From positions 1 through 35,461 of the forward strand of contig NZ_CP006373.1 in the NCBI RefSeq assembly GCF_001442755.1: DNA of 35,461 bases, in the 5' to 3' direction. The number at the start of each line of letters is the position of its first letter. Position 1 is the stretch's first letter. Position numbers and translations under genes: made by a program. Positions 11,845 to 34,054 of this stretch are shown in pieces. This DNA is from Aureimonas sp. AU20. Lineage in GTDB: Bacteria > Pseudomonadota > Alphaproteobacteria > Rhizobiales > Rhizobiaceae. Below the pieces are notes generated by a model. That model was not told the DNA's origin. It saw only the letters and a list, made by a program, of their open reading frames with translations, and did not search any database.

Positions 11845-12121
11845 AAAGGACTGAAAATTTGAGACCAGCGGGGTCCGTTCGGCGCCCGGACGAAAGGTCC
11901 GCCAACGGCGCAGGCTGAAAAGGCGCCCAACGGCTCCGGTGGGGTCGAAGGGCGACGGTCTTCCTTCTGACAAAGTGCGTCAAAATCAGCATCTCGGATC
12001 AATAGGTTGGTTCTTTGCAGCGACGATGCTTGCAACGCTAAGCCCTCCAATGCAGAGCTTTCGCCAGCGCAAGTGCTCGTCCTGCATAAGCGACATACGG
12101 CCCATTGCGTCGAGTGCCTCC
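11845..12121. other. Intergenic region between divergent sigma operon and kinase
   Basis: The far half of the 344-bp space between divergent genes. The kinase frame stays open upstream to 11939, but that part codes for an atypical sequence and is probably leader. No clear sigma70-type promoter stands out for the kinase. Confidence 0.35.
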
Positions 12122-14879: not shown

Positions 14880-15163
14880 TCGAGCAGGCGCTATCTGCCC
14901 TCAGCGAGTCCGTCTTTTGGGAGGTTGCCGCATCCGCACAGTGGTCTGCGAGATGTCGAAAGCGGATAGTTCTCATCCAGCCTACCACTTCCCCACCGCG
15001 GTGTTGCACGACGGGACAGCAAGATGCCCGTCAGCGATCAGTTATGCCCAGGCGACAACCGTGGTCCGCGACTGGTGAACTTCCTTCCATCTCGGCCGTG
15101 GAACGCTTACGAATGGCGCAAGCGGTGTGCGATTGGGAACGGTTTCGACCTTTGAGCGACAGG
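14880..15163. other. Intergenic region between the two kinase modules
   Basis: 284 bp separating copy 1 from copy 2. The second kinase frame stays open back to 15044, but the first 40 codons of that frame do not resemble the family. I see no hairpin terminator or clear promoter here. Confidence 0.3.
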
Positions 15164-17557
15164 ATGACGGCGCGGGCATTTTCCGGCGCGGAGCAAGACC
15201 CTGGCAAAGTGCTGCCGATGGCAGACCAGATCTCGCATCATGACTGGTCAGGCACGCCACTCGGCTCGCATCGGCGGTGGCCTCAGAGCCTTCACACCAT
15301 TGTCGATATGATGCTGGCCTCGGGCCATGCGATCTGCTTGGCCTGGGGACCGGAGCAAACTTTTCTCTACAACAACGCCTATGCGCCGTTCCTGGGCGCC
15401 CGCCACCCGCAGGCGCTCGGCAGGCCGTTTGCTGAAGTCTGGCCTGATGTCTGGGCCGAGATCGAGCCCCTCGTGACACGCGTCTACGGCGGCGAGACCG
15501 TGACGTTCCAGGCCATGCCACTCATCATGACGCGCAACGGGTATGCCGAGGACACGTGGTGGGACTTTTCCTACTCGCCCATCCGAGACGAGACAGGTGA
15601 GGTCGCAGGACTGTTAAATATCGCCGCAGACGCAACGCCGCGGATCGTGGCGGAACGGGAGCGTGACGCTGCAACTGAGAAGCTGCGGGTCAGCGAAAGT
15701 GTCGCGCGGGCGAACTTCGAACGTGTCCAGTTGGCGCTTGGCGCGGGCGCCATCATCGGCACTTGGTTCTGGGACATCGTGGCCGATCGCTTCACGATCG
15801 ATGAGCCGTTCGCCAGAGCGTTCGGTCTCGATCCGGCATTGGGACGCGAAGGCATCTCGCTCGCGCAGATCGTAGAGACCGTTCATCCCGACGACCAGGT
15901 TGGATTGGCCGATGCGATCAAAAAAGCTGTTGCCCGCGGTGGTCACTATGCGCACCAGTATCGCGTGCGGCGATCGGACGGGAACTACTATTGGTTGGAG
16001 GCGAACGGGCGCGTCGATCGTGCGCCGGATGGAACGCCGAAGATGTTCTCCGGCGTTCTAATTGACATTGCGGAGCGGCTCGCCGCCGAGGACGCCTTGG
16101 CTCGCAGCGAAGCTACTTGGCGAACTGTCTTTGAGACGCTGCGCGAAGGCTTCATCCTCGGCGAGGTGATCAGAGATGCATCTGGCCAGGTCGTCGACTG
16201 GCGCTATGAGGCAGTGAACAACGCATGGCATGATATGCTTGGTATGCCACGAGGCACAGCGGTCGGGCGTACGGTCCGCGACCTCCTTCCCGACATCGAG
16301 GATGAGTGGATCAACGAGTTCGCGCGGGTCGTCGAGACCAGTGAACCTGCTCGCTTTACGCGGCGGGTTGGTACGTTGGACCGCTGGTACGACGGCGTGG
16401 CGCAATCGATCGGCGATGATCGCTTTACGGTAATCTTCGTGGATGTCACGGACCGCATCAAGCGGGAGCGCCGCCAAGCAACGCTTTTGACGCTGGCGGA
16501 CGAACTGCGCGGTCGATCGGACCTCCAGACCATCGTGACGGCGGCGGCACGTTGCCTCGCCGATGGACTGGAGGTTGATCGCGTGGGCTCAGGCACTGTG
16601 AACCTTCGCCAGGATACGATCGACGTCCAGTCCGACTGGTGCGAGCAAGGCGTGCCGAGCGTCGTCGGTCGGCATGCATTCTCGTCCTATGGATCGTACC
16701 TCGCCGACCTCAGACGCGGTGACATCGTCGCGGTCGACGATATTTACGAGGACGCACGAACAAGTGGCCGGCAAAGGGAATTTGACGCGATCCAGACCCG
16801 ATCGTTCCTCGACCTGCCCATCAGCTTCGACGGCCGCCTCTATGCCGTGGTCTTCGCGCATTCTCGCACGCTTCATCCCTGGACCGACGGCGAGCGGCAG
16901 TTTGTTGAGCAGGTAAGCGATCGAGTTCGTGTGGCGTTGGCTCGTCAGCGAATGGAGGACGCCCAGCGGGTCCTGACGCAGGAGATGTCGCACCGCATGA
17001 AGAACACGCTCGCCATGGTGCAGGCGATCGCGACGCAGACACTTCGGCAGGCCCACACGATGGACGAGGCCCGCGAGGCTATCTCCAGCCGGCTGTCGGC
17101 GCTGGCACGGGCGCAGGACATCTTGACGCGCACGAACTTTACCGAGGCCGACGTGCGCGAGGTCGTGGAGGCGGCGATCGCACCGCATCGGCTGGCGGGC
17201 GAGCGCGTCGCCATGTCAGGCCCAAGGGCGGACCTGTCGGCGCAACAGGCGCTCGGCCTGAGCCTCGCCATCCACGAGTTGGCGACGAATGCCGCGAAGT
17301 ACGGGGCTTTATCGAACGAGACGGGCCGCGTCGACATGACCTGGGGCATGGCTGACGGCGCGTTCAAATTTCATTGGATCGAAACCGGGGGGCCCCTTGT
17401 TATCGTTCCGAAACGGCGCGGGTTCGGCTCCAAGCTGATTGAACGCATTGTTGCCTCTTACTTCGACGGCGAGGGCCATATTGAGTTTGATCCAGCCGGT
17501 ATCTGTTTCACGTTGACCGGATCGCTCGTGCAGCCCGTAAACGCTCTCAAGACCTGA
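15164..17557 (+). CDS. PAS/GAF HWE-family sensor histidine kinase (copy 2)
   Basis: About 797 aa, cytoplasmic. It begins with a PAS-like region typical of HWE kinases (HDWSGTPLGSHRRWPQSL, then ICLAWGPEQTFLYNNAY), followed by a PAS domain nearly the same as the first one of copy 1 (GTWFWD…ADRFTIDE, FGLDPALGREGI), a third PAS domain (WRTVFETLREGFILGEV), a GAF domain, and the kinase core. His610 lies in EMSHRMKNTLAMVQAIA, the N-box is HELATNAAKYGALSN, and Trp738 in HWIETGGP gives the WxE motif. I prefer the ATG at 15164, which leaves about 25 residues before the first PAS block as in relatives; ATGs at 15113 and 15218 are alternatives. It is 10 bp from its response regulator. Confidence 0.87.
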   Translation: MTARAFSGAEQDPGKVLPMADQISHHDWSGTPLGSHRRWPQSLHTIVDMMLASGHAICLAWGPEQTFLYNNAYAPFLGARHPQALGRPFAEVWPDVWAEIEPLVTRVYGGETVTFQAMPLIMTRNGYAEDTWWDFSYSPIRDETGEVAGLLNIAADATPRIVAERERDAATEKLRVSESVARANFERVQLALGAGAIIGTWFWDIVADRFTIDEPFARAFGLDPALGREGISLAQIVETVHPDDQVGLADAIKKAVARGGHYAHQYRVRRSDGNYYWLEANGRVDRAPDGTPKMFSGVLIDIAERLAAEDALARSEATWRTVFETLREGFILGEVIRDASGQVVDWRYEAVNNAWHDMLGMPRGTAVGRTVRDLLPDIEDEWINEFARVVETSEPARFTRRVGTLDRWYDGVAQSIGDDRFTVIFVDVTDRIKRERRQATLLTLADELRGRSDLQTIVTAAARCLADGLEVDRVGSGTVNLRQDTIDVQSDWCEQGVPSVVGRHAFSSYGSYLADLRRGDIVAVDDIYEDARTSGRQREFDAIQTRSFLDLPISFDGRLYAVVFAHSRTLHPWTDGERQFVEQVSDRVRVALARQRMEDAQRVLTQEMSHRMKNTLAMVQAIATQTLRQAHTMDEAREAISSRLSALARAQDILTRTNFTEADVREVVEAAIAPHRLAGERVAMSGPRADLSAQQALGLSLAIHELATNAAKYGALSNETGRVDMTWGMADGAFKFHWIETGGPLVIVPKRRGFGSKLIERIVASYFDGEGHIEFDPAGICFTLTGSLVQPVNALKT

Positions 17558-17567
17558 CCGCGCATCA

Positions 17568-17957
17568 ATGACCCAATCCTTAGATCCCGCCCGATACGCC
17601 GTTCTGATCGTGGAAGACGATGCTCTTGTGCGAGCCGAAGCGGTGGACCTGTGCGAGGAAGCAGGCTTTACGGCCTACGAGGCGCGTAACGCCGATCAAG
17701 CCATCCGCCTGCTGGAGCGCCATTCCGACATCCGTGTCCTGTTTACCGACGTAGAGATGCCCGGAACGATGGACGGTCTGAAGCTCGCGAGAGGCGTACG
17801 CGACCGTTGGCCACCGGTGGCGATTATCATGACGTCCGGACGCATCAAGGTAGAAGCATCAGACATGCCCGAGAACGGCCTGTTCTTCGCCAAACCGTAT
17901 CCGCCAAAGGGCATCATCAAGGCGTTGAACGAGATCGCGACTCAGCTTCACACCTGA
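17568..17957 (+). CDS. Single-domain response regulator (copy 2)
   Basis: 129 aa, one receiver domain only, with acidic residues in LIVEDDALV, phospho-acceptor Asp61 (LFTDVEMPG) and Lys109 (FFAKPY). It resembles the regulator at 14496 throughout (EMPGTMDGLKLAR versus DMPGEMDGLELAR), as expected if the kinase-regulator pair was duplicated. It lies 10 bp after its kinase in an apparent operon. There is no output domain. Confidence 0.9.
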   Translation: MTQSLDPARYAVLIVEDDALVRAEAVDLCEEAGFTAYEARNADQAIRLLERHSDIRVLFTDVEMPGTMDGLKLARGVRDRWPPVAIIMTSGRIKVEASDMPENGLFFAKPYPPKGIIKALNEIATQLHT

Positions 17958-19198: not shown

Positions 19199-20467
19199 TT
19201 ACGCCGCTTGAATTGCTGATTCAATAGACTGCCGAATGGCACTTCGCCCCGACCCTGACGCATTTCGATAAAAGTCCGTCGAAAAGTCTATCTCTCCAGC
19301 TTTCATAAGTCTTTTCTCAAAGTAGTCTATATCTATTACTTTTCCCTCAAACGCTTCGATCGATAGCTTTCGTAGTATATCAAGAAGAGCTTGAACTCCT
19401 ACAGTTTTTGTAATGAAAGAAGTTGGAGTTGCCTTTTTCCAAAACACTTTTTCGCAGGCGGCAAGGTAGTTTTTTACGATTTCATAGATAACTGCATCAA
19501 GGCCTTTCACATAAGCCAATCTCAAAGGCGACCGATCAGTCCTAGATTTTTTATCTAGAAATATCTCTCTTGTCTTTTGCTCAGGAGTGATAAGTTCATT
19601 TGAATCTGATTTTGGGTTACTGGATATAAGCCGAAGTATTCCCTCGACAATTACAGCCGTAGAGACTCTCCAGACACGCGAGTCAAAAATGCTATATAAC
19701 TGGTCATCTTTTCGAGGGGAAATGACAATCTTCTGATAAAGTGGAGAAGCGGGATCCGCCGCCAGCCGTCGCGTCAAATATACAGCTAATTTATCTGGCG
19801 CCCATTCCGGAGCTTCTTCTTTTTCTACATTATATCCAAACAGTTCATAGGTAAGACTTTTGTTTACTTTTCTCTGATTCGAATTAATTGTCGCAAAAAG
19901 CTGTGCCTGTAAAGGTTTGGCCAAATCCATGTAAATCGAACAGGAAATTGCCATATTTAGCCTGCTAGCGACACGCGCATATGAAAATCCCCACAAGCGA
20001 TGCTGACCATCAATGATAGATGCGAGCTTTGCGCCTGTTGGAATCGTTAGCGTTGTGTTTCCGGTTTCATCACTATTCACCGTCCATCTACGATTTATAG
20101 GGTTTGTGACTTCAGCTTTTTTGATTTCATCATCATTAGCTCCGGGAAGGGATGCCATATGTGCATTCAGCACTGCCTCTTCTTCCACAAGTCCGTCTTC
20201 TGCACGCATGTTTGCTGCAATGATGATTGAATTTGGAAAAGCAGAGTCATCCCGATCGATGTATGCGCCAATTTCTTGAAATCTCTTTATTTGAGGCTCT
20301 CTCTGAGTCCCTCGTAATCTATAGGGAATTTCAGCGTTTCCTGTTGCCTCAGCTGTCAACAAGTCGCTATACCCAACTTCAAGAAGCAGTCTAGCTGGAA
20401 GACTTACAATATAAAAAGATCCCATTGGTTGTTCAATAAGTATTGCACTTGCTTTAAATGGAAACAT
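19199..20467 (-). CDS. dndB: DndB-like DGQHR-domain protein of the phosphorothioation island
   Basis: 422 aa. The motif SIIDGQHRLWGF (DGQHR at residues 153-157) defines the DGQHR/DndB family, and FATINSNQRKVNKSLTYELF is the second conserved block. DndB proteins are non-essential members of DNA phosphorothioate (Dnd) systems and are reported to repress dnd transcription or modulate modification. It lies on the strand opposite to dndC-dndD, with the divergent promoter region in between, after a membrane protein gene 11 bp upstream. Its DNA is clearly more AT-rich than dndC-dndE, suggesting another origin. DGQHR proteins also occur in other defence islands, so the name DndB depends on context. 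Confidence 0.8.
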   Translation of the reverse strand: MFPFKASAILIEQPMGSFYIVSLPARLLLEVGYSDLLTAEATGNAEIPYRLRGTQREPQIKRFQEIGAYIDRDDSAFPNSIIIAANMRAEDGLVEEEAVLNAHMASLPGANDDEIKKAEVTNPINRRWTVNSDETGNTTLTIPTGAKLASIIDGQHRLWGFSYARVASRLNMAISCSIYMDLAKPLQAQLFATINSNQRKVNKSLTYELFGYNVEKEEAPEWAPDKLAVYLTRRLAADPASPLYQKIVISPRKDDQLYSIFDSRVWRVSTAVIVEGILRLISSNPKSDSNELITPEQKTREIFLDKKSRTDRSPLRLAYVKGLDAVIYEIVKNYLAACEKVFWKKATPTSFITKTVGVQALLDILRKLSIEAFEGKVIDIDYFEKRLMKAGEIDFSTDFYRNASGSGRSAIRQSIESAIQAA

Positions 20468-20478
20468 GGAATCAGGAC

Positions 20479-21036
20479 CTAATACTTGAAATCTGAGAGT
20501 GCGTCTTCGCCGCTCAACGTTGCAACTGCATCTACGCCCCCGGATGAATCTTCAGGCGCCGACGGCGTATCATCCCTCAGAGCGGGATCATCCGCATTTA
20601 CAATCCAGCAACAACATAAGGCCAGTATACTTGTTACCGATGCAACAAATATTGCAACAGGATCGCTGATATTTTTTGAGGATATGAGCACTAAGCTCAC
20701 CGCTATAAATGGAAACGGTAATATATTACATAACGCACGGATGCTTTTATGAGCAGTATCCGACAACGCCAGCTGAAGACAAACTGATCCTAATATCGCT
20801 GGAAAATATGCAACGATTGCCGATCTTAAAGGGGTCAGACCGTTTTCTATTGGCGGATTTCCAAAAAGATAAAAGCCTAGCTCGATCCATACACTTACAG
20901 CTGCAAAAAGTATAAAGTTCCCTACGAAATGGAACGCATAGGTGGGGTGCTTCCTTGGTGCTGACCAACGACGCCGTATATCAGCAAAGAGGCGTTCGTA
21001 ACCATCATAGTCGTCGTTAGTAGATGCCGCATTCAT
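20479..21036 (-). CDS. Predicted four-helix membrane protein, co-transcribed with dndB
   Basis: 185 aa, no recognised family. A charged cytoplasmic N-terminus (YERLFADIRRRWSAPRKHPT) is followed by about four hydrophobic segments: FVGNFILFAAVSVWIELGFY, IVAYFPAILGSVCLQLAL, ILPFPFIAVSLVLI and VAIFVASVTSILALCCCWIV. An acidic, Ser/Asp-rich tail (DDPALRDDTPSAPEDSSGG) follows. It starts the minus-strand unit, with dndB 11 bp after its stop. The DNA is AT-rich like dndB. Membrane proteins in defence islands sometimes act as abortive effectors, but there is nothing specific to show that here. Confidence 0.6.
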   Translation of the reverse strand: MNAASTNDDYDGYERLFADIRRRWSAPRKHPTYAFHFVGNFILFAAVSVWIELGFYLFGNPPIENGLTPLRSAIVAYFPAILGSVCLQLALSDTAHKSIRALCNILPFPFIAVSLVLISSKNISDPVAIFVASVTSILALCCCWIVNADDPALRDDTPSAPEDSSGGVDAVATLSGEDALSDFKY

Positions 21037-21384: not shown

Positions 21385-22524
21385 ATGTTCCAATCTTTGT
21401 CATCGTCTTATCAGATACCGTCGATTGAAGAGACTTGGAGTTCGATTGTTTCTTCAATTCGTACTGAGTATCTATCGGAGTCGCAGTCCTATCCGTGGAT
21501 CATTGGCTTCTCTGGGGGGAAAGACAGCACCGTCGTCACGCACGCGGTGTTCGAGGCTCTTCTTCAGATCTCGCCATCCCGGCGGACGCGTCCGGTCCAT
21601 CTCGTCTCGAACGATACGATGGTCGAGTCTCCTCTCGTCATCGCGCATCTGGATGTGGTCACCCAACGGATCGCAGAAGCGGCTGATGGGCTGGGACTGC
21701 CCATCACTGTCGCGCGGACGAAGCCAGATCCCGATAAGACGTTCTGGGTGCTGCTCATCGGCAAAGGCTACCCAAGCCCCAACATGACAATGCGCTGGTG
21801 CACGGATCGGCTGAAAATTCAGCCGACAAGCGGCTACATCAAAGGCCAAGTTTCAGAGTCAGGCGCGGCGATCGTTCTGCTTGGGGTGCGCCGCGACGAG
21901 AGCCAATCGCGTCAGAAATCAATCGATCGCTGGCGGAATGCTCGCGGTAGCAATCTCTCTCCGCATGAGCGCCTACCGGGCGCCCTCATCTACCGGCCGA
22001 TCGTCGATCTCGCGGTTGAGGACGTTTGGGAGATCCTTGGGACCTGCCATGCTCCCTGGGGCGGTGATCACACGGCCCTCATCAAGCTTTATCGTGACGC
22101 CGAAGGCGGCGAATGCCCTGTGGTGCTGAGCGTTGACGAGGCGCCTGGCTGCGGGACCGCGAACAGCCGTTTCGGCTGCTGGACCTGCACGGTGGTCGAA
22201 AAGGACAAGAGCCTGCAAGGGTTCGTGGATGCGGGCCAACACCATTACGTGCCCCTGCTTGGCTTCCGTGACTGGCTGCGTTCGATCCGAAACAAGCCAG
22301 AGATGCGTCAGATCGTTCGCCGGAACGGCAAGGTGTCGTTCAGTCCGGACGGAAAACACATTCCAGGCCCGTTCACGATCCAGGCCCGGCGCGAAATCCT
22401 GGCACGCCTCCTCGACGTGCAAAGCCAATTTGGCGCTCCCCTCATCAGCGACGATGAGGTTCATCGCATTCATCAGCATTGGTCTGAAGAACTCCAAACC
22501 CAAGGTGCGCTAGCGAATGTCTGA
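21385..22524 (+). CDS. dndC: DndC: PAPS reductase-like sulfurtransferase for DNA phosphorothioation
   Basis: 379 aa. The PP-loop SGGKDST (residues 43-49) binds ATP as in PAPS reductases and tRNA thiolases. Conserved cysteines follow: Cys139 in MRWCTDRLKIQP and the cluster Cys256-x8-Cys265-x2-Cys268 (GCGTANSRFGCWTC), which fits the iron-sulfur cluster of DndC proteins. LGVRRDESQSR is a further family block. DndC activates the DNA backbone phosphate and inserts sulfur with the DndD-DndE complex. It starts immediately after the RHH gene stop and overlaps the next gene by 8 bp. The sulfur would normally come from cysteine desulfurase DndA/IscS, which is absent from this window. Confidence 0.93.
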   Translation: MFQSLSSSYQIPSIEETWSSIVSSIRTEYLSESQSYPWIIGFSGGKDSTVVTHAVFEALLQISPSRRTRPVHLVSNDTMVESPLVIAHLDVVTQRIAEAADGLGLPITVARTKPDPDKTFWVLLIGKGYPSPNMTMRWCTDRLKIQPTSGYIKGQVSESGAAIVLLGVRRDESQSRQKSIDRWRNARGSNLSPHERLPGALIYRPIVDLAVEDVWEILGTCHAPWGGDHTALIKLYRDAEGGECPVVLSVDEAPGCGTANSRFGCWTCTVVEKDKSLQGFVDAGQHHYVPLLGFRDWLRSIRNKPEMRQIVRRNGKVSFSPDGKHIPGPFTIQARREILARLLDVQSQFGAPLISDDEVHRIHQHWSEELQTQGALANV

Positions 22525-22732
22525 CGCCACGCTCGAAGAGATTAATCTCAGTGACCTGCCGCTATGGGCGGATGAAGAGGCCACTGCGATCCTGGAAGGG
22601 ATTGCAGCCGAGCACGGCGTCCCTGTGGACGTTCTGACTGAGCTGGTTGGATTGCAACGCGCGAGACAGCACCAAGAGCGTGCTGCCGGCATCAATCAAC
22701 GGATCGAGGAGATCCTGGGGCGAATGGACTGA
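22517..22732 (+). CDS. Small Dnd-associated protein between dndC and dndD
   Basis: 71 aa, overlapping the end of dndC by 8 bp, so it is translated from the same message. Acidic N-terminus (ATLEEINLSDLPLWADEEA), then a helical region with GIAAEHGVPVDVLTELVGLQ and RQHQERAAGINQRIEEILGR. The latter looks like a short coiled coil, which suggests docking onto DndD or DndE. Small proteins in this position are seen in other Dnd clusters and are described only as modification-associated. I know of no established function. It has no DndE-like sequence. Confidence 0.7.
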   Translation: MSDATLEEINLSDLPLWADEEATAILEGIAAEHGVPVDVLTELVGLQRARQHQERAAGINQRIEEILGRMD

Positions 22733-22759: not shown

Positions 22760-24829
22760 ATGTGGATCTCTAAAATCGAGTTGGTCTGCTTCAAATCATA
22801 CCAGCGCCAGGAGTTCGAGTTCCCGCAACCCGAGGGTGGTCGGAACATCGTTCTCGTGGGTGGTCTGAACGGTTACGGAAAGACCTCTATTCTGGAGGCC
22901 ATCTACCTGTGCCTGTATGGCAAGGATGCGATGGCCCACCTGGCACGAGCCGGCTTGAAGACGGACGAGAAGAAGGGCTATCCGACCTTCCTCGAAAAGG
23001 CTTTCAACGGAGAGGCGCTAAGGGCAGGCCAAGACACGATGACGGTTCGGGTCGTTGTTCAGAGGACCAAGACCAAGGGCGCTGAAATCACGCGCAAATG
23101 GTACTTCCGATCGAACGGTACGTGGACGGACGAGGAGACAACCTACCGTGAGATCGTTCGCGGCGTACCGGAAATGCCGAGATCTGACGGGCGAAACGGC
23201 TTCCACCTTTCGGAAGTGCTCGACGAGTTTTTCGTACCGGCTCACATCGCGCCCTTCTTCTTCTTTGACGGTGAAGAGGTCAAAAAGCTCGCCGATCAGA
23301 ACCGGATCGAACAGGTTAAGCAGGGCTTGGAAGGCCTTCTCGGTGTTGTGCTCCTGCGCTCGCTCACGGAGCGCCTACGCAGCTTCGAGCGCTCTAAGCG
23401 TGATGGTGTTGCCAACGTCGACGAGGACCGCCTTCAGAGCCTCTATACGCAGCTGACCGAGAATGAACGTCAGGCTTCAGAACTGGCGCGTAAGGGCGTC
23501 GAGACGAAGGCGGACCGCGAGGCTCTAGAGGGCGAATTCCAGTCGCTTTTGGAGCGTGTCACATCGCTTGGCGGTGGAGGTGGCGATACCGCGACCTACA
23601 AGGACCTAATCGAAGAGCGAGAGCAGGTTCGCAACCGCCTCCGGGAAACTCACCGCCGGATGGAAGAGGTTCTTGCTGGACGGCTACCGCTTCATCTCGT
23701 GTCCAAGGACGTGTTTACGACCTTCAAAAACCAGCTCGAGGAAGAGGTTCGCTACTTCCAGTGGGAAGGGGAGAAGCGTGCCTTGGAACCGCGTCAGCGC
23801 GAGTTTGAAAGCGCCTACGACAAACAGACAGAGCGCCCGATCAATCCGCCGCTGACAGCGGAGCAGGAGGGGATCGTAAAGTCGCGCATTCAAGCCGCGT
23901 GGGAAAGCCTATTTTTCCCGCCACCGGACGACTGCGCGGATGAGATCATCTACGACTTCCTCTCGATTGAGCAGCGCACTCAAACGCTGGCAGCTCTCGC
24001 CGGCTCCTCGCTTGGAATGCAGGAAATCCAGGAAGTTCTGCGGCAGCAAAGCGAGGCAGAAGAGCGCATCAACGATCTCGGGCGCAAAATCTCCCGCCTG
24101 GAAGGCATTGATCGCGACGGCACTCTCACCGCTCTACGGGCGGAGCTTAAGACGGTTCAGGACCGGCGAACAGAACTCGATGAAACCTGGCGCACGGATG
24201 AGCGCCGCGTTGTGGGTCTGGAGGCCCAGATCAGTTCGCAGCGTGCCGAATATGAGCGCGAGAGGAAGAAGCTCGATGACTCCTCGCCGTCTCGCGAGAT
24301 TATCGATCGCTCCGAGCGCGTCCGCCGCGTCATTGACGCTGTGATCCCCGCCCTTTTCCCGCTGAAGGTGAAGGAACTCGCGAGCAGCATGACGCAGGTC
24401 TACAAACAGCTCGCGCACAAAGGTCAGGTCGCCAAGATCGAGATTGGTGATGATGGATCGACGACGATCCTCAGCAAATCCGGTAAGGCTCTGACGTTCG
24501 ATCGGTCCGCTGGCGAAAATCAGATCTTTGCCACAGCCCTTATCGCAGGGTTGGCGAAGGTCTCAGGCGTTCGCGCGCCATTGGTGGTCGATACGCCGCT
24601 TGGCCGGTTGGACAGCCGTCATCGTCAGAACATTCTTGGCTACTGGACGAGCGATAAGAACCGTCAGGTCATCCTCCTCAGTCAGGACGAGGAAATCGAT
24701 GCGGATTTTGAGAAGCGGCTGCGCAAGTCCGTCTCCAAGACGTACCTGCTGAACCACATCGATGTCGGCGATGGAGTTGGACGTACAACAGCCATCCCGG
24801 ATGCCTACTTCGCGGAGCGCGGCGAATGA
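22760..24829 (+). CDS. dndD: DndD: SMC/Rad50-like ATPase of DNA phosphorothioation
   Basis: 689 aa with a split ABC-type ATPase. Walker A GLNGYGKTS (35-43) is at the N-terminus after IELVCFKSYQRQEFEF. The FFFFDGEEVKKLAD block typical of DndD is near 168. A long coiled-coil middle section follows, then signature SAGENQIFATALI (Ser583) and Walker B PLVVDTPLGRLD (Asp611 within). DndD is thought to act on DNA structure for DndC/DndE with ATP hydrolysis. The start ATG has GGGAGG 9 nt upstream, and its stop overlaps the next ATG as ATGA. A classical CxxC zinc hook is not seen. Confidence 0.93.
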   Translation: MWISKIELVCFKSYQRQEFEFPQPEGGRNIVLVGGLNGYGKTSILEAIYLCLYGKDAMAHLARAGLKTDEKKGYPTFLEKAFNGEALRAGQDTMTVRVVVQRTKTKGAEITRKWYFRSNGTWTDEETTYREIVRGVPEMPRSDGRNGFHLSEVLDEFFVPAHIAPFFFFDGEEVKKLADQNRIEQVKQGLEGLLGVVLLRSLTERLRSFERSKRDGVANVDEDRLQSLYTQLTENERQASELARKGVETKADREALEGEFQSLLERVTSLGGGGGDTATYKDLIEEREQVRNRLRETHRRMEEVLAGRLPLHLVSKDVFTTFKNQLEEEVRYFQWEGEKRALEPRQREFESAYDKQTERPINPPLTAEQEGIVKSRIQAAWESLFFPPPDDCADEIIYDFLSIEQRTQTLAALAGSSLGMQEIQEVLRQQSEAEERINDLGRKISRLEGIDRDGTLTALRAELKTVQDRRTELDETWRTDERRVVGLEAQISSQRAEYERERKKLDDSSPSREIIDRSERVRRVIDAVIPALFPLKVKELASSMTQVYKQLAHKGQVAKIEIGDDGSTTILSKSGKALTFDRSAGENQIFATALIAGLAKVSGVRAPLVVDTPLGRLDSRHRQNILGYWTSDKNRQVILLSQDEEIDADFEKRLRKSVSKTYLLNHIDVGDGVGRTTAIPDAYFAERGE

Positions 24830-26349
24830 GCGCCCTCAGCCTCCAGCAAATCATGTCGTCACGGTTTCGCACGTCGGCCGTAGCGGATGGGCACACCCGA
24901 GAGCTGATGGATCTCCTAGGCCTTTCCACGAAGGCCAACGTCGCACGCTTGTCGATCGGCCGCTCCTTGTCGCTTGGAGCCTTCGATAACGACAGCGTCG
25001 ATGCAAAAGGTTTGGAGATCCCAGCTGCGTCCCTGTTCACGCAGGAGGACGTAACAATCTGGGTCGGACTGATCCTGACTCATGCCAGGGCGAACGGCAT
25101 CACCATGGATGGAATGGATGCATTCCGTTCGGCACTTCGCCAGCATTGGCACCGAGGCGCTGGCCTGCTCATGGAGGATTGGCGAAGCAGCGGCGAGAAT
25201 TTCGACAACTTCGTTAGCACCCTTGTGAAGCGTCGTGCGGACTTGCCGGACATCGGTACGCCGGCACAAGCGCAGAAGGCGACAGTCGGCAAAGCTGTCT
25301 CGGCCGAGGATCAATCTACGCAGCTTGGTAAGGCGCTCGGCGAGATCGGCGTGGGTGCTGAGGTCAAGGGCGTGGTCCACGGTCCTCGCCTATCCCGGTA
25401 CAAGGTCGCGCTTCGCGACGTGAACCAGCTCGATAAGCTCCGCAAGGGACTAGAGCGTTTGGCGTTGGCCATGAGCCTTCAGGACATGATGCCAGCGCTT
25501 GGTCATAGCGACGAGCCGAAGACTGTCACGATCGATATTCCCCGCCTCAGCAAATCCTGGACCACGGCTTCGAAGATCGAGTTCCTGGAAGCCCTGAATG
25601 CGGTGAGCGGTTCAGGGACGGAACTTATCGTCTGCCCTGGTATGACGGTCGTTGGCGAGCCCGTTCTGTTCGATCTCCGCTCGGCGCCTCACCTTCTGGT
25701 GGGCGGCGCTACCGGACAGGGCAAGAGCGTGTGCGTCCATGCGATCCTCAGCTCGCTCATTGTGAAGCACACCCCGGCGACCCTTCAGCTCGCATTGATG
25801 GACCCCAAACGGGTTGAGTTCTCGATCTACGCGAAGAGCCGCTTTCTCTGGCGCAATGAGATCGCCGTGGGCGCAGATGCAGCACTTGAAACTCTGCGAG
25901 CGCTCGTTGCGGAGATGGATGATCGATACGAGCGGATGAGCGAGCTGGGGGTCAACAGCATTGGGGATCTCGCGCTGAAGGGCGTGAAGCTCCCCTATAT
26001 CGTCGCCTGCGTGGACGAGTTAGCCGACCTCATCATGCAGGATCGAGGCGTCGAAGCTGAAATTATCCGGCTGGCACAGATGGCCCGTGCGGCTGGCATT
26101 CACCTCATTTTGGCGACCCAACGCCCCGACGCTAAGACGTTCAGTGGTTTGATCCGCAGCAATATCCCGGCTCGAATTGCTCTGACGGTTCAGAAGGCGT
26201 CGGAGTCGCAGATCATCCTGGACGAAAGCGGCGCAGAGGACCTGCTGGGCCGAGGAGACATGATCGTCAAGCTGGCGGGCTCACCGCTGGTCAGGGCGCA
26301 TGGATATTACCTGACGTCGACCGACGTCGAGAACATCGTCGCTCGATGA
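24826..26349 (+). CDS. DndE domain fused to an FtsK/SpoIIIE-type DNA translocase motor
   Basis: 507 aa. Residues 1 to about 125 read as DndE: FRTSAVADGHTRELMDLLGL, then ANVARLSIGRSLSLGAFDND and IPAASLFTQEDVTIWVGLIL. From about 170 the FtsK motor begins: VGAEVKGVVHGPRLSRYKVA matches the beta/alpha region, Walker A GATGQGKS is at 294-301, Walker B has Asp397-Glu398 in VACVDELADLI, and LILATQRPDAKTFSGLIRSN is the standard FtsK box. There is no membrane domain and no C-terminal gamma (KOPS-reading) domain. In ordinary systems DndE is a separate protein of about 110-120 aa that binds nicked DNA. This fusion places a hexameric DNA pump in the modification complex. It overlaps dndD and tusA by four bases each. 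Confidence 0.85.
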   Translation: MSALSLQQIMSSRFRTSAVADGHTRELMDLLGLSTKANVARLSIGRSLSLGAFDNDSVDAKGLEIPAASLFTQEDVTIWVGLILTHARANGITMDGMDAFRSALRQHWHRGAGLLMEDWRSSGENFDNFVSTLVKRRADLPDIGTPAQAQKATVGKAVSAEDQSTQLGKALGEIGVGAEVKGVVHGPRLSRYKVALRDVNQLDKLRKGLERLALAMSLQDMMPALGHSDEPKTVTIDIPRLSKSWTTASKIEFLEALNAVSGSGTELIVCPGMTVVGEPVLFDLRSAPHLLVGGATGQGKSVCVHAILSSLIVKHTPATLQLALMDPKRVEFSIYAKSRFLWRNEIAVGADAALETLRALVAEMDDRYERMSELGVNSIGDLALKGVKLPYIVACVDELADLIMQDRGVEAEIIRLAQMARAAGIHLILATQRPDAKTFSGLIRSNIPARIALTVQKASESQIILDESGAEDLLGRGDMIVKLAGSPLVRAHGYYLTSTDVENIVAR

Positions 26350-26582
26350 CCGATCAAGCGTTCGACCATCTGCTCGACACGTCAGGCCTGAAATGTCCTT
26401 TGCCGGTCATCCGGGCTCGCAAGCTCATTCGGACAATGCCATCCGGGACGCGGTTGAAAATCATTTGCACCGATCCGCTGGCGGAGATCGATATTCCGCA
26501 TATGGCCGCGACTGACGGACATAAGCTTATGGGAAAAGGGCGTGAGGGAGACCAGCTTTGGTACACGCTACAAACCGCTTAG
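26346..26582 (+). CDS. TusA-family sulfur carrier protein in the dnd operon
   Basis: 78 aa, complete. It carries the family motif DTSGLKCPLPVIRARKLI with the sulfur-accepting Cys17 in CPLP, and a C-terminal IDIPHMAATDGHKLMGKGRE that matches TusA/SirA proteins. TusA takes persulfide sulfur from the desulfurase IscS and hands it to other proteins, for example for tRNA 2-thiouridine. Here its ATG overlaps the DndE-FtsK stop as ATGA, so it is the last gene of the dnd operon, before a terminator. In the absence of dndA it could deliver sulfur to DndC. That link is inference from operon structure. Confidence 0.9.
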   Translation: MTDQAFDHLLDTSGLKCPLPVIRARKLIRTMPSGTRLKIICTDPLAEIDIPHMAATDGHKLMGKGREGDQLWYTLQTA

Positions 26583-26615
26583 ATTAATTTAATCTTCTGC
26601 TTTTGTTTTGACATG

Positions 26616-26654
26616 ACGGAGTGCTGAAATATGACTCAGCACTCCGTTATTTTT
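26616..26654 (+). terminator. Strong rho-independent terminator of the dnd operon
   Basis: ACGGAGTGCTGA (26616-26627), an 8-nt loop, and the exact complement TCAGCACTCCGT (26636-26647), followed by TATTTTT. Twelve perfect pairs plus a T-run make it convincing in the plus direction, 34 bp after the tusA stop. A small palindrome, AGATTAATTTAATCT, overlaps the end of the gene just before it. Confidence 0.88.
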
Positions 26655-28841: not shown

Positions 28842-31817
28842 CTAAAGCTCGTACCCGCCGCGATCGCGCTCTCTGTCGCGCTCCTGCTCCCGCTCTCGGG
28901 CACGCTGGCGTTCCTCGGGCGTGTCCATGCTCGCATAGAGGTCCGCTATACGCTCTTCGATCGATCGTTTCCGGACCGGCTCGGTGCCGGTCTCCCGCTC
29001 CTGCGACGGTTCACGCTCCCTTGCCCCTTCCACACTCTCACGAAGCGCCTCCAGGCGCTCGCTGATGCTGAGGCTCGGTGTTGCATCCTCACGCTTCTCG
29101 CCGCGCTCCAGGCCACGGTCCTGCAACGCCTCGAGGCGTTCGGTGATGCTCGGCCGATCCTCCTCCCGTTCCGCATCCCTTTCCGCTGAGCAGCCTCTCT
29201 CCCGATCACGATCGATGGTTTCGTTCCGTTCAGGGTGGGGTCCGGTTCGCTCCTCGACCGGACGCTCCTCCCTGGCGGATGCCGGTGGCATGAGATGGTC
29301 GAGGCGGATCGTAACCGAGGCGCGCTCGAAGGTGGGTTTGGGCTCGGGCGCCTCTCGTGGCGCGGTCCATCGGTCCCGTGCCTCGCGGATCTCGCGCAGC
29401 ACCCGCGCCGTGATGGACTCCTTCGCAGCTTGGGGCTCGGTCTCGTCCGGAACGCGGATGGCCTTGGCCTCGTCCCCCAACAGCCGCTCCGCGCGCTCGT
29501 CGCGATCCGAGCGCTCGTCGCGCCGCCCCTCGACCTCGATCCCGCGCCGCTCGGCATAGTCCAGCGTCGTTTCCTTGCTGTTGGCGTGGCTGAGGCCGGT
29601 GACCAGCGCTTGTCTGTCGGCGAAGTCGTCGCGGCCCACATGGAGCTGCACAGCGTCACGGTGACGGGTCATCGCGACATAGGCGAGATGGCTGTCCATG
29701 CCGCCCGACGCCAGCACGTAGGATCGGTCGACGGTCGCCCCCTGGCTTTTGTGGATCGTCGTCGCGTAGCCGTGGTCGAACTTGTCGTATTCGGCCACTG
29801 GCACGGTGACGATGCGCCCTTTCTCCGTCTCGCCTCCCGGCCCCTGCGCCCCGTCCAGCCTGACGACGATCTCGCCCTCGCGAACCGCGCCGACGGTCCC
29901 CAGCATGCCGTTCTTCACCCCGAGATCCCGGCTGTTCTCCAGGAACAGGAACCGGTCTCCGATCGCGAAGACCCGCTCGCCGTCGTTGGTCCGGTAAGAG
30001 CGCTCGACATTCAGCTCGCCGCGCTCGCGCCGCTCGCCCCGGATCGCCTCGTTCAGCTCGCGAACGTCCGCGCGCCGATAGGTCAGCACGAGCTGCGAGG
30101 CCTCCGGCTTCGCGTCATGGTCCCGCATGACCTCCGACACGATCGCGTAGCGTGCCGCCTCGCGTGTCTCCGCGAACCGGATCGCGCCATGCCCGTCATA
30201 GGCCGAGAGACCTTGGCTGACGCGCAGCCGCGCGAAGTCATGGCTCGCCTCGCGCTGCCAGCCTTCGCGCTGCCGGCGAACCTCCTCCAGCTCGGCAAAG
30301 CCGATGTGCTCGGTGACGGCCCGGAACGCCGCGCCGGCCTGGATTGGCTGCAGCTGCTGCGGATCGCCGACCAGCACGAGCTTGGCCCCGGCGCGGTCCG
30401 TCTCCTCGATGAAGCGGGCGAGCTGGCGCGACGACACCATGCCCGCCTCGTCGATGACGAACACATCGCCCGGATCCAGCTGTCCGCGTCCGTTCGCCCA
30501 GCCATATTCCCACGAAGCCAGCGTGCGCGAGGCGATGCCCGAACTCTCCTCCAGCCCCTCGGCCGCCTTGCCGGCGAGCGCTGCGCCATGAACGCGGTAA
30601 CCTTGCGCTTCCCACGCCTCCCGCGCGCTCGTCAGCATGGTCGACTTGCCCGCTCCTGCCAGTCCGACCACCGCCGCACAACGCTCTTCGCCGGTGACGT
30701 GCCGAACCGCCTCCCGCTGCTCCTCGGCCAACCAGCTGCGCGCGGCGAAGGCGCGCTCGACATGATCAGCCTCGACGCCGTGCCCGCCGCTCTCCGCCAT
30801 GCGCACCGCGCGATCCACCATGCCGGCTTCCAGCGCGATCATCTCACGCGTCGAATAGCGCGCCAGCTCGGTGGCGTGTCCCTGTCGGTCCTGGACCTCC
30901 CCGCGAAGCTCCACCAGCTCGGCGCTTGCCATTACCTGTGCGAAGGCGTTCTGGAACTCCTGGGGATCGTCGATCGCCCGGTGCAACGCGCGCGCCACGT
31001 CATGCCGATCGAACACGCTCTTCTCGCCGGTGACGAGATGCAGAACCTGCTCGGGCTTCTCGCGGATCGATTGAACGTTCTGCCGCGCCGCGTCCTCTTC
31101 AAGACGAACCCGCGACACGTCCATGCCGCGCCGCTGCATCTCGGTCGCATGCACGCCCATGTGCTGCGTCGGCGCGATCTCCAGACCACGCGCTTCGTGC
31201 GAGCGATGGTCGATCCGCTCAGCGTGACCAGCACGGGCCAGATGCGCGTTGGCGTGGTGCTCCCACGCCTGCCTGAGATCACGGAGCTGCATGTGCGAAG
31301 TCGGTAGCCCTTCCGCCAGAAGCCGCGCGTTGCGCCACTCGAACTGCGTCTTATCGCCCAGTCCGTCTGCCGTGACCTCGCGCGTCGTCATCAGGATATG
31401 CGCATGATGATTGCGGATGTCAGTCTCGCCGGACGGCGAATGGATGGCGAAGTCCACCGCCGTGCCGTAGCGGTTCGCCAAGTCCTGCGAGAACGATCGC
31501 GCCAGCTCGATCCGCTCTTTCGGCGTCAGCTCATGCGGCAACGCGACTTCGAACTCGGTGGCGACACGAGCATCTTTTCGCTTCTCGGCTTTCTCGGCTG
31601 CGTTCCACAAAGCGGACCGGTCCAGTGCCCAAGCCGCATCGACGCCTTCGGGCATCACAATCTCGGTATGGCCGATGCCGCATTTGCCTCTGTAGTCGTG
31701 AACCTGCCCGTCTGAGAGATTAGCTAGCCGTTCGCCGGATCGATACGCCGCTGCCGCAACCGCGCTGCGCCCGGACGAGCGCGATAGCGATTTCATCGAG
31801 CAGTGGTAGATCGCCAT
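28842..31817 (-). CDS. traA: TraA-type conjugative relaxase with helicase domain (MobQ family)
   Basis: 991 aa. The N-terminal MobA/MobL relaxase domain has the candidate catalytic Tyr25 (AAAAYRSGERL) and the metal-binding histidines in NHHAHILMTTREV (137-140). A RecD-like helicase follows, with Walker A GLAGAGKST (385-393), DEAGM (456-460), VLVGDPQQLQPIQAGAAFRA, and a later YATTIHKSQGATVDRSYVLA. The tail of about 200 residues is rich in Arg and Glu. This is the TraA layout of Ti-type plasmids, slightly shorter than usual. It nicks oriT, which lies just upstream between traA and the divergent tra genes, and unwinds DNA for transfer. Confidence 0.95.
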   Translation of the reverse strand: MAIYHCSMKSLSRSSGRSAVAAAAYRSGERLANLSDGQVHDYRGKCGIGHTEIVMPEGVDAAWALDRSALWNAAEKAEKRKDARVATEFEVALPHELTPKERIELARSFSQDLANRYGTAVDFAIHSPSGETDIRNHHAHILMTTREVTADGLGDKTQFEWRNARLLAEGLPTSHMQLRDLRQAWEHHANAHLARAGHAERIDHRSHEARGLEIAPTQHMGVHATEMQRRGMDVSRVRLEEDAARQNVQSIREKPEQVLHLVTGEKSVFDRHDVARALHRAIDDPQEFQNAFAQVMASAELVELRGEVQDRQGHATELARYSTREMIALEAGMVDRAVRMAESGGHGVEADHVERAFAARSWLAEEQREAVRHVTGEERCAAVVGLAGAGKSTMLTSAREAWEAQGYRVHGAALAGKAAEGLEESSGIASRTLASWEYGWANGRGQLDPGDVFVIDEAGMVSSRQLARFIEETDRAGAKLVLVGDPQQLQPIQAGAAFRAVTEHIGFAELEEVRRQREGWQREASHDFARLRVSQGLSAYDGHGAIRFAETREAARYAIVSEVMRDHDAKPEASQLVLTYRRADVRELNEAIRGERRERGELNVERSYRTNDGERVFAIGDRFLFLENSRDLGVKNGMLGTVGAVREGEIVVRLDGAQGPGGETEKGRIVTVPVAEYDKFDHGYATTIHKSQGATVDRSYVLASGGMDSHLAYVAMTRHRDAVQLHVGRDDFADRQALVTGLSHANSKETTLDYAERRGIEVEGRRDERSDRDERAERLLGDEAKAIRVPDETEPQAAKESITARVLREIREARDRWTAPREAPEPKPTFERASVTIRLDHLMPPASAREERPVEERTGPHPERNETIDRDRERGCSAERDAEREEDRPSITERLEALQDRGLERGEKREDATPSLSISERLEALRESVEGAREREPSQERETGTEPVRKRSIEERIADLYASMDTPEERQRAREREQERDRERDRGGYEL

Positions 31818-32078: not shown

Positions 32079-32390
32079 ATGGCCAAACTCTCGATCGAGG
32101 CACGCATTGCGCAGCTCGAAGCCCGCAAGCAGGCATTGAAGGCTCGTCTCGGAAAGCAGGAGCGAGCCATCGATACCCGCCGCAAAGTTCTGCTCGGCGC
32201 CATGCTACTCGATACGATTGAGCGCGCACGGGCAGGTCAAGGACGTCCGGAGGATCGTGACGTCGCTGTTATGCTGGAAGGCTGGGTCACCCGCGAACTG
32301 CCGGGCTTCTTGAAGCGAACGATCGACCGGACCCTGTTTGCCGACTTCATCACATCGGAAGAGGGTTCGCATACGGAGACCGAACAATGA
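32079..32390 (+). CDS. Small TraD/MobC-like mobilisation accessory protein
   Basis: 103 aa from an ATG at 32079 with GGAAAGG about 8 nt upstream; a GTG at 32055 is a weaker choice. The N-terminal half is a long charged helix, MAKLSIEARIAQLEARKQAL then KARLGKQERAIDTRRKVLLG, like the small TraD/TraC/MobC proteins that help the relaxase at oriT. The C-terminal half (EDRDVAVMLEGWVTRELPGF) is probably helical. Its stop overlaps traG as ATGA. The exact name is uncertain; the role is inferred from position. Confidence 0.72.
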   Translation: MAKLSIEARIAQLEARKQALKARLGKQERAIDTRRKVLLGAMLLDTIERARAGQGRPEDRDVAVMLEGWVTRELPGFLKRTIDRTLFADFITSEEGSHTETEQ

Positions 32391-34054
32391 ACCCGACCTT
32401 CTGGGGACGTCGGTTCGGTGTTGGCCCCCTTGTCTCCCTCGCCATTGTCATCGTCGCGCTCTGGTTTCCGCTGAGCTTCCTCGCCCGGCAAAGTCCACGC
32501 TTCCTGTTCTGGGCCTCGTCTCCGTTTCAGAAGGGCTTGGGCGACGCGATGAACGCCATGGGCTTTTCGATGCTCGGGCTCATTGGCATCAGCGATCCAC
32601 AGGCCTTCTACGATTACTGGACGATGGGACAGGGCCTTTACATCGCTCTGCTCTTTCCGCCCGTACTCATCGGGCTGCTGCTTTGGTTTCTCGGCCTCGA
32701 TCTCTTGCAGATGCTCATCGGTGGCGCTCCTCCGGTCCCTCATGGCTCGGGACGCTTCGCCTCCGCTCGGGAGGAAGCCTTTCATCGCCGATACAAACCG
32801 GGTGCGCTAAATGTTGGAGCCGGGCCTGGCTCCTCCTCCTATTGGTTCTCCGGGCCTGAGCATCTCTTGACGATCGCTCCCACGCGTTCCGGCAAGGGCG
32901 TCGGCGTCATCATCCCGAACCTTTTGACCGCCGAACGCAGCATCCTCGTCATCGACCCCAAGGGTGAGAATGCCGAGATCACCGCACGCCAGCGCCAGAG
33001 CTTCGGCCCGGTCTATGTCCTCGCCCCCTTTCGGCAGGACGGTGTCGCCAGCGCCGCCTACAATCCGCTCGCCGGCCTCGACCCCAAGGATGATGCCTTC
33101 GTGGACGATGCCACGACGCTGGCGACCGCTCTCATTCTCTCCGATCCCAACGCCGAGAACAGACACTTCGACGAAGGCGCTCGCGCCCTCTTGCGGGGCC
33201 TTCTCATGCTGGTGGTCGTTGCCGAACCACCCGAACGACGCCATCTCGTGACCGTCCGCGAGGTCCTGACCTATCCCAAGGAGCGCTTTGCCACCCTCCT
33301 GGAGATCATGACCTCAATGAAGGAGGCTGGAGGCGCCATCGCTTCGGTCGCCAACGTCTTTCGCGGCAAGAATGACAAGGAGCGGGCGGCCATCCTGTCC
33401 ACCGCGCAGGAGCAGACCAACTTCCTCGAAAGCCCTGCTCTCAAGCGGTCTCTGACACGCTCGGATTTCGAGTTCAGCAGCCTCAAGACGGGCATCGCCA
33501 CGGTCTATCTCGTCCTGCCGCAGGAGCGCATGGAAAGCCACGGACGCTGGATCCGTCTTCTCGTCACAAGGGCGCTTCAGGACATCCAGCGCACCAGGGC
33601 CAAACCGGCAGCGCCGATCCTCTTCGTCCTCGATGAGTTCGCCGCGATCGGCGACATGCCTGCGATCAAGACCGCCATCGGTCTCATGGCCGGTTACGGC
33701 CTTCAGATTTGGGCGTTCCTGCAGAACTGGGGCCAGCTCGAAGAGGTCTATGGCAAGGGCGCCCACACCTTCGCCGCCAATGCCGGCGTCTTCCAGGCCT
33801 TCAAGGTCAACGACACCGTCACCGCCCGCTACGTCTCGGACCTATCGGGCGATACGGCGCGCCATCAGCCTGTGACCCAAGGCAAACCCGTGGGCGGCAA
33901 GCTGCTGACGCCCGAGGAGGTCATGCACCTCGACGACAACCGCATGTTCCTCAAGTTCAAGGGAACGCGGCCCATCCTCACCGGCATGCGCCCCTACTTC
34001 CAGGATCGAAAGCTCCGCAAACTCGCAGACCCCTCCAGCTTCCAGGCCGGGTAA
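32387..34054 (+). CDS. traG: TraG/VirD4-type coupling protein
   Basis: 555 aa. Two N-terminal membrane segments (LVSLAIVIVALWFPLSFLAR; LYIALLFPPVLIGLLLWFLG) lead to the NTPase: Walker A APTRSGKGVG (164-173), VIDPKGENAEITA, Walker B LFVLDEFAAIGD, and IWAFLQNWGQLEEVYGK, the TraG/VirD4 signature. It connects the relaxase-DNA complex to a type IV secretion channel. It is somewhat shorter than usual for TraG, which is near 640 aa, but shows no frameshift. No trb or virB channel genes occur in the window, so transfer may depend on another element. Confidence 0.93.
   Translation: MNPTFWGRRFGVGPLVSLAIVIVALWFPLSFLARQSPRFLFWASSPFQKGLGDAMNAMGFSMLGLIGISDPQAFYDYWTMGQGLYIALLFPPVLIGLLLWFLGLDLLQMLIGGAPPVPHGSGRFASAREEAFHRRYKPGALNVGAGPGSSSYWFSGPEHLLTIAPTRSGKGVGVIIPNLLTAERSILVIDPKGENAEITARQRQSFGPVYVLAPFRQDGVASAAYNPLAGLDPKDDAFVDDATTLATALILSDPNAENRHFDEGARALLRGLLMLVVVAEPPERRHLVTVREVLTYPKERFATLLEIMTSMKEAGGAIASVANVFRGKNDKERAAILSTAQEQTNFLESPALKRSLTRSDFEFSSLKTGIATVYLVLPQERMESHGRWIRLLVTRALQDIQRTRAKPAAPILFVLDEFAAIGDMPAIKTAIGLMAGYGLQIWAFLQNWGQLEEVYGKGAHTFAANAGVFQAFKVNDTVTARYVSDLSGDTARHQPVTQGKPVGGKLLTPEEVMHLDDNRMFLKFKGTRPILTGMRPYFQDRKLRKLADPSSFQAG

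Follow-up and report, generated by a model that had tools for sequence, protein, structure and literature searches.

A TusA-type sulfur carrier closes a dnd operon without its own cysteine desulfurase in Aureimonas sp. AU20 and may supply sulfur for DNA phosphorothioation

The dnd operon of Aureimonas sp. AU20 ends in a gene for a TusA-type sulfur carrier and contains no cysteine desulfurase gene, and the same pairing in relatives suggests a dedicated sulfur supply line. The observations behind this are an intact gene, the layout of the operon, its terminator, repeated linkage, subfamily, selection, fold and the absence of a desulfurase from the cluster. With a probability of about 0.5, we consider that a desulfurase-less branch of Dnd systems recruited a dedicated TusA, probably twice, and that phosphorothioation in this branch would run from a host desulfurase through TusA to the Fe-S PP-loop enzyme DndC. 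The window referred to below is the whole stretch of DNA analyzed, 35,461 bases, which is the complete contig C7 of a 5.2-Mb, 9-contig genome.

A dnd operon that ends in tusA

On the plus strand, dndC, a gene for a small Dnd protein, dndD, a DndE-FtsK fusion gene and tusA follow one another with overlaps or short gaps throughout (Table 1), and this gene set is predicted to install sulfur in the DNA backbone (phosphorothioation). The DndC combines the PP-loop motif SGGKDST with five invariant cysteines, and DndD is paired with a DndE that matches weakly here: in the window the DndE portion of the fusion scores 21.4 bits, under the Pfam cut-off of 25, while that of a Mariprofundaceae relative (L040) lies above it at 29.6. 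A fusion of DndE with HerA/FtsK is described in PMC10853773, and the subtype as reported there shares with the window DndC, DndD, a small protein, the fusion and a DndB-like DGQHR protein. The window differs in adding tusA as its last gene, with no dndA found; the words TusA, SirA and sulfur carrier are absent from the main text of that paper. According to its methods, the paper kept only neighborhoods present in more than one phylum, and such a filter could have excluded the arrangement of the window.

Table 1. Features of the dnd region, in positions of the window
Feature	Position	Strand	Basis or remark
DndB-like DGQHR protein 1, divergent from dndC	19199..20467	-	PF14072 33.7 bits, over cut-off
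185-aa protein, no family, divergent from dndC	20479..21036	-	no profile match
dndC, PP-loop (SGGKDST) sulfurtransferase, short form, 379 aa	21385..22524	+	TIGR03183 354 bits, cut-off 290.4
Small protein of Dnd systems (Sp-DndD)	22517..22732	+	PF20306 55.6 bits
dndD, coiled-coil ABC ATPase	22760..24829	+	TIGR03185 278 bits, cut-off 245.85
DndE-FtsK fusion: DndE-like N-terminus, FtsK/HerA translocase C-terminus	24826..26349	+	FtsK 143.8 bits
tusA, last gene of the dnd operon	26346..26582	+	78-aa sulfur-carrier protein, dnd-type subfamily
Intrinsic terminator after tusA	26613..26650	+	15-pair stem and T run

The DGQHR protein also reaches 437 bits on TIGR04172, slightly below the cut-off of 450. 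Homologs of the neighboring 185-aa protein, found by tblastn, adjoin the DGQHR gene in five other loci (L003, L192, L005, L010 and L020), and this protein is possibly an undescribed Dnd partner.

Elsewhere the window encodes a Ti-type relaxase TraA (28842-31817; TIGR02768, 1011 bits), a TraG/VirD4-like coupling protein (32387-34054) and a ParA-like partition protein (347-1018), genes that probably mark the contig as belonging to a mobile plasmid. An IS481-family transposase gene lies near the contig end (34695-35360; 177 bits, under the cut-off of 224). Two genes for large PAS/GAF sensors with HWE histidine kinase domains (11939-14503 and 15044-17557) are followed by one for a response regulator (17568-17957), and a SorA/SorT-like sulfite dehydrogenase catalytic subunit is encoded at 3889-5175 (223 bits, under the cut-off).

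The TusA protein and its terminator

The first-pass annotation had described an intact TusA with Cys17 in a CPLP motif and a four-base overlap of its gene with the DndE-FtsK stop, and each of these points holds: the open reading frame is intact, its translation places Cys17 within CPLP, and the ATGA at 26346-26349 holds the stop codon of DndE-FtsK together with the start codon of tusA. The protein scores 63.3 bits on the Pfam TusA family (PF01206; cut-off 28.6) and 55.3 bits, under the cut-off of 78, on the NCBIfam equivalog for E. coli-type TusA (PRK00299); by sequence we class it as a member of the family, without equating its function with that of E. coli TusA. Cys17, presumed to be the persulfide cysteine, is invariant together with Pro18 and Pro20 in 31 of 31 aligned TusA rows, as are Cys41 and Trp72 and the greater part of the CTDPLAEIDIPH core; the rows were picked by similarity, and dnd linkage was seen or inferred for 12. 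The copies of Rhizobium phaseoli and Ectorhizobium quercum likewise keep Cys17, Cys41 and Trp72. The AlphaFold model (mean pLDDT 91.8) predicts a TusA fold, with a helix at residues 19-29 that sets the CPxP cysteine just before helix 1, and its top match in the PDB is 3lvj_C, E. coli TusA with IscS (TM 0.90, 74 columns, 38% identity).

The terminator said to follow tusA was also recovered. Its stem folds at -25.7 kcal/mol (z -6.0), and 0 of 200 shuffles were equally stable; the pattern alone means little, because a pattern scan of the region gave 6 terminator-like sites against 8.5 in shuffles.

One further TusA is encoded in the AU20 genome, on contig C1. It scores 59.8 bits on a dnd-type TusA model on which the linked Hyphomicrobiales proteins score 115-139 bits, a model built mostly from dnd-type rows and hence biased, and it sits apart from dnd-type TusA on a poorly resolved 79-column tree. 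These comparisons point to dnd-type TusA as a separate subfamily, distinct from the second TusA of the genome. A recent duplication of the housekeeping gene is disfavored by the low score of the C1 copy on the same biased model and by its separate place on that tree.

Substitution rates indicate that dnd-type TusA is under purifying selection, with dN/dS of 0.13 and 0.15 in the two pairs of lowest dS (0.75 and 0.80); dS is higher in the remaining pairs, in some of them too high to estimate, and the ratios that could be estimated run from 0.07 to 0.44. The closest named relative at the locus, among the matches listed, is Aureimonas sp. AU12 (L003), with a DndE-FtsK 99% identical and a TusA 85% identical. 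Between the two genes dS to AU12 jumps from 0.12 to 0.75, and nucleotide identity drops from about 97% to chance level across positions 26420-26620, within and just after tusA, which resembles the border of a recombined segment. Relaxed selection as the source of the faster TusA divergence was rejected, as dS rises too and identity declines along the gene.

Linkage of tusA to dnd genes across genomes

A survey of dnd clusters for an adjacent tusA, which the first-pass annotation had proposed, speaks against a chance association. Loci came from a contig scan with a DndE-FtsK alignment, which gave the best 80 of at least 462 confirmed relatives. A TusA profile run over 98 loci found the protein, besides the window genome, in AU12 (L003), Ectorhizobium quercum (L004), a member of the Mariprofundaceae (L040) and a Rhizobium phaseoli plasmid (L083). 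A Burkholderia glumae plasmid locus has no TusA and carries an insertion sequence immediately after the FtsK gene.

Within the family of the window, DndE-FtsK matches (E <= 1e-80) occur in 7 of 394 genomes, and a PF01206 search places tusA directly after DndE-FtsK in five of the seven, the window included; all five have a second TusA elsewhere. The other two (G648 and G684) have no adjacent tusA and a desulfurase-like gene beside dndC, and their DndE-FtsK matches reach 396 and 387 bits, far below the 844-913 bits of the four linked genomes with a full-length gene. The same search, over 12 genomes in all, found TusA beside dndC in none of five other DndC-bearing genomes. In the fifth linked genome, G478 (L194 5079-5827), an intact tusA follows the 3' 172 codons of DndE-FtsK alone; dndC and dndD were not found on the 15 kb read, and the locus is a cluster remnant or an assembly matter. 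By eye, stop-start overlaps of 1 or 4 nt are present in the window, L003, L192, L193, L004, L194 and L040.

The DndE-FtsK tree has 48 rows, two of them unlabeled for too little downstream sequence, and 8 of the 46 labeled rows carry TusA. These comprise all six rows of one Hyphomicrobiales clade (SH-aLRT 100) and both Mariprofundaceae rows (clade support 100), in which TusA follows directly or past two genes. On this tree, whose rows were a non-random choice from surveyed loci, whose method was quick and whose L042 branch is very long, the trait takes 2 changes against a shuffled mean of 7.6, and 0 of 500 shuffles were that low. Inside either clade, tusA may have become associated with dnd once and been inherited since, and the two Mariprofundaceae loci are not independent because they come from the same genus.

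In the first of these two loci (L040, which has the same sequence as the G914 contig), the DndE-FtsK stop and the tusA start share one base, and the gene after tusA is mutT-like, as judged by eye. In the second (G940, L198), an AAA ATPase gene and a gene with a weak DUF4435 match stand between DndE-FtsK and tusA, purA lies downstream, and a second TusA copy sits about 100 bp from a contig end. DndC was detected in 2 of 61 Mariprofundaceae genomes, and the same two have this type of TusA above 80 bits; at E <= 1e-8 it was found in three, since a genome that lacks DndC joins the pair, at 41 bits against their 172 and 97. As a separate observation, two distant dnd loci (L198 8848-10892 and L219 9404-11445) have an AAA ATPase gene and a second gene after the one for the FtsK-domain protein, the second gene being the one with the weak DUF4435 match in L198, and these two genes are a possible effector pair.

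In the tree of TusA proteins (94 rows, 79 columns), 34 of the 36 dnd-type rows form one group with a support of 85, which is not strong; the R. phaseoli and E. quercum copies fall outside this group, and the Mariprofundaceae copies stand together alone (100). Recruitment of TusA by dnd systems on two occasions is likely on these sequences and, because the tree is poorly resolved, not proven.

Across 398 genomes sampled from the phylum, DndC (E <= 1e-50) occurs in 16, three of which (the window, G914 and G940) have TusA beside dnd, and contig ends could conceal others in fragmented genomes; in the same sample, the dnd-type TusA profile found none but the window above 87 bits. Among the matches listed, the exact contig size of a DndE-FtsK match recurred among at least 118 TusA matches for 16 of 34 proteins of at least 61% identity against 2 of 86 below that, a comparison of sizes, not of contigs read, and likely an undercount; with shifted sizes, 0 to 2 of the 120 recurred. 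Pairs linked by size, again among the matches listed, come from Brucella pseudogrignonensis, Rhizobium leguminosarum, Rhizobium sp. Root491, Ochrobactrum soli, Mesorhizobium wenxiniae and Rhizobiaceae bacterium BDR2-2. Viral contigs yielded no relative of dnd-type TusA and 46 relatives of DndE-FtsK, one of which (L145) is full-length and 56% identical, with no TusA in view.

A chance neighbor is disfavored by linkage that recurs in two clades. It could be speculated instead that tusA is a passenger gene of housekeeping or metabolic function that came to lie beside dnd and moves with it. We regard this as very improbable: the gene is small and at the cassette edge, its identity to AU12 falls inside the gene as at a recombination border, and the sulfite dehydrogenase-like gene is on the same contig, though 21 kb away; yet the two clades hold different TusA lineages and the downstream genes differ in the second (mutT-like in L040, purA in L198), while the short overlaps in seven loci, the second TusA in all five linked family genomes and the purifying selection on TusA also argue against a passenger.

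Desulfurases and the need for a carrier

That the operon is without dndA is borne out. All ten genome matches to the class-V aminotransferases (PF00266, the group including DndA and IscS) lie on C1-C4 and none on C7, and the best desulfurase match by tblastn in the window has an E value of 0.58. The three strongest PF00266 matches are on C1 and C3; by eye, the two C1 enzymes, about 4 kb apart, are SufS and an IscS/NifS-like protein, and the C3 protein is without the usual cysteine loop. The Dnd system of the window therefore has no DndA of its own among these matches, which is not disqualifying because DndA is reported in 1384 of 4287 taxa that bear the module (PMC10853773).

With the SufS and IscS-like proteins of the genome as queries, desulfurase-like genes were found near dndC in 4 of 55 loci (L027, L094, L195 and L196), a set in which L191 repeats L004; the gene of L094 is divergent and truncated by the locus end. 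In addition, plasmid pM0123d of Mesorhizobium amorphae (L219) has an annotated cysteine desulfurase gene immediately before dndC and no TusA. None of these five desulfurase loci has TusA beside dnd, and no desulfurase was seen in the eight TusA loci that show dndC (window, L003, L004, L083, L192, L193, L040 and L198), L040 having just about 0.4 kb in view before dndC. Within the DNA in view, TusA and a desulfurase exclude each other; they are not complementary, because the majority of the 55 loci, several of them short, show neither.

A carrier does not seem to be generally required, because 38 of the 46 labeled DndE-FtsK loci have no TusA, because 35 of those 38 are also without a desulfurase in the DNA in view (several being short or cut), and because the Salmonella dpt cluster is reported to carry out phosphorothioation without need of E. 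coli tusA (PMC3519819), a result that applies to that system and host only. The TusA-less relatives include some with a DndC 67-72% identical, and IscS is reported to substitute for DndA in vitro (PMC10853773). The proposal of a dedicated carrier consequently stands for a conserved, selected part of one dnd branch, and not as a general need wherever dndA is missing.

It is conceivable, if rather unlikely, that TusA is an optional booster, with the host desulfurase feeding DndC directly and TusA adding rate or specificity where the fit between them is poor. Many related clusters showed neither TusA nor a desulfurase, and for tRNA thiolation MnmA and IscS are reported to be enough in vitro, Tus proteins raising the activity 200-fold (PMC11784392). 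The fit between desulfurase and DndC matters, because Streptomyces lividans DndA is described as not replaceable by other IscS homologs (PMC2653506). Nothing speaks directly against this explanation, which is a weaker form of the relay to DndC.

The sulfurtransferase DndC

Five cysteines of DndC (Cys139, 244, 256, 265 and 268) are invariant in 32 of 32 sequences, whether TusA is present or not, and in this alignment no conserved cysteine is gained or lost in the TusA loci. Substitution by TusA for a lost Fe-S center in DndC is thereby rejected. The parallel that the first-pass annotation drew to TusA-MnmA is loose because DndC keeps these cysteines. The DndC model has a pLDDT of 83.9, and drops to about 57-69 in the stretch around residues 241-280, which holds four of the five cysteines. 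Its structural matches are headed by PAPS reductases, with TtuA (with its carrier TtuB) and LarE lower, all at low TM (about 0.3 for TtuA). Searches of the PDB gave nothing at E <= 1 with the DndC sequence and weak matches with a profile, the best being an FAD synthase at E 0.02.

DndC is reported to hold an Fe-S cluster whose assembly is promoted by DndA (PMC7188994, PMC2653506). A possible, though less probable, alternative to a relay is therefore that TusA serves Fe-S assembly or sulfur allocation, steering the host desulfurase to DndC or tuning uptake without being the donor of the DNA sulfur. The unchanged cysteines of DndC, the reported action of DndA on its cluster and reports that E. 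coli TusA affects desulfurase activity or Fe-S homeostasis (PMC11446229, PMC11302665, PMC11302051) agree with such a role; nothing separates it from the relay, as the invariant Cys17 and the CPxP loop fit both.

Discussion

The likeliest mechanism, to which we give somewhat better than even odds, is that the dedicated TusA relays sulfur from a host desulfurase to DndC for DNA phosphorothioation. A putative phosphorothioation machine of the DndE-FtsK type would be encoded without its own cysteine desulfurase; a housekeeping enzyme of the host, SufS or IscS-like and encoded on C1, would load a persulfide onto Cys17 of TusA; TusA would pass the sulfur to DndC, or to a complex of DndC, DndD and DndE; and the sulfur would end in the DNA backbone, and not only in the Fe-S center of DndC. 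We count in favor of this relay the recurrent linkage and the purifying selection, the desulfurase loci without TusA and the TusA loci without desulfurase, as well as the top fold match to TusA with IscS and the presence of TtuA-TtuB among the DndC matches (TM about 0.3). Counted against it are the TusA-less majority, the unchanged cysteines of DndC, the dpt result and the replacement of DndA by IscS in vitro.

Comparison with known systems places the proposed relay in context. The M. amorphae pM0123d cluster shares the gene order of dndC, FtsK-domain protein and DGQHR protein 1 and differs in its desulfurase gene directly before dndC and its lack of TusA. With the E. coli IscS-TusA relay for tRNA 2-thiouridine, the window shares the TusA fold and the CPxP cysteine, whereas the acceptor is MnmA there and would be DndC here; the operon is without TusBCD and TusE, because its other genes belong to other families. 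A closer parallel than TusA-MnmA is TtuB-TtuA, in which a [4Fe-4S] PP-loop enzyme is paired with a carrier. It differs in its target, a tRNA base and not the DNA backbone, in the fold of TtuB, which is ubiquitin-like, and in that DndC resembles TtuA weakly. What is shared, as far as the titles of 5gha, 5mkp and 5mkq tell, is a dedicated carrier that feeds a PP-loop sulfurtransferase with an Fe-S cluster. As to a second cysteine, E. coli TusA is reported to have Cys56 (PMC11302665), and in dnd-type TusA Cys41 is invariant.

The impression that tusA in a dnd operon had gone undescribed agrees with the literature, in which, supplements and most subscription papers aside, we found no report of it; the parts available of PMC3519819, PMC9239217, PMC7188994, PMC6884506, PMC10853773, PMC11302665, PMC11784392 and PMC2653506 do not contain it. 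Nor was a report of a carrier-fed route to DNA phosphorothioation found in the literature searched.

The account of phosphorothioation is weak on how DndC obtains its sulfur, and dndA-less clusters are common. TusA and DndC offer a two-component pair for a direct test of persulfide transfer. With a carrier borne on the operon, sulfur delivery and Fe-S assembly could be told apart, and a carrier of its own could let a mobile defense cassette function in hosts whose desulfurase fits DndC poorly.
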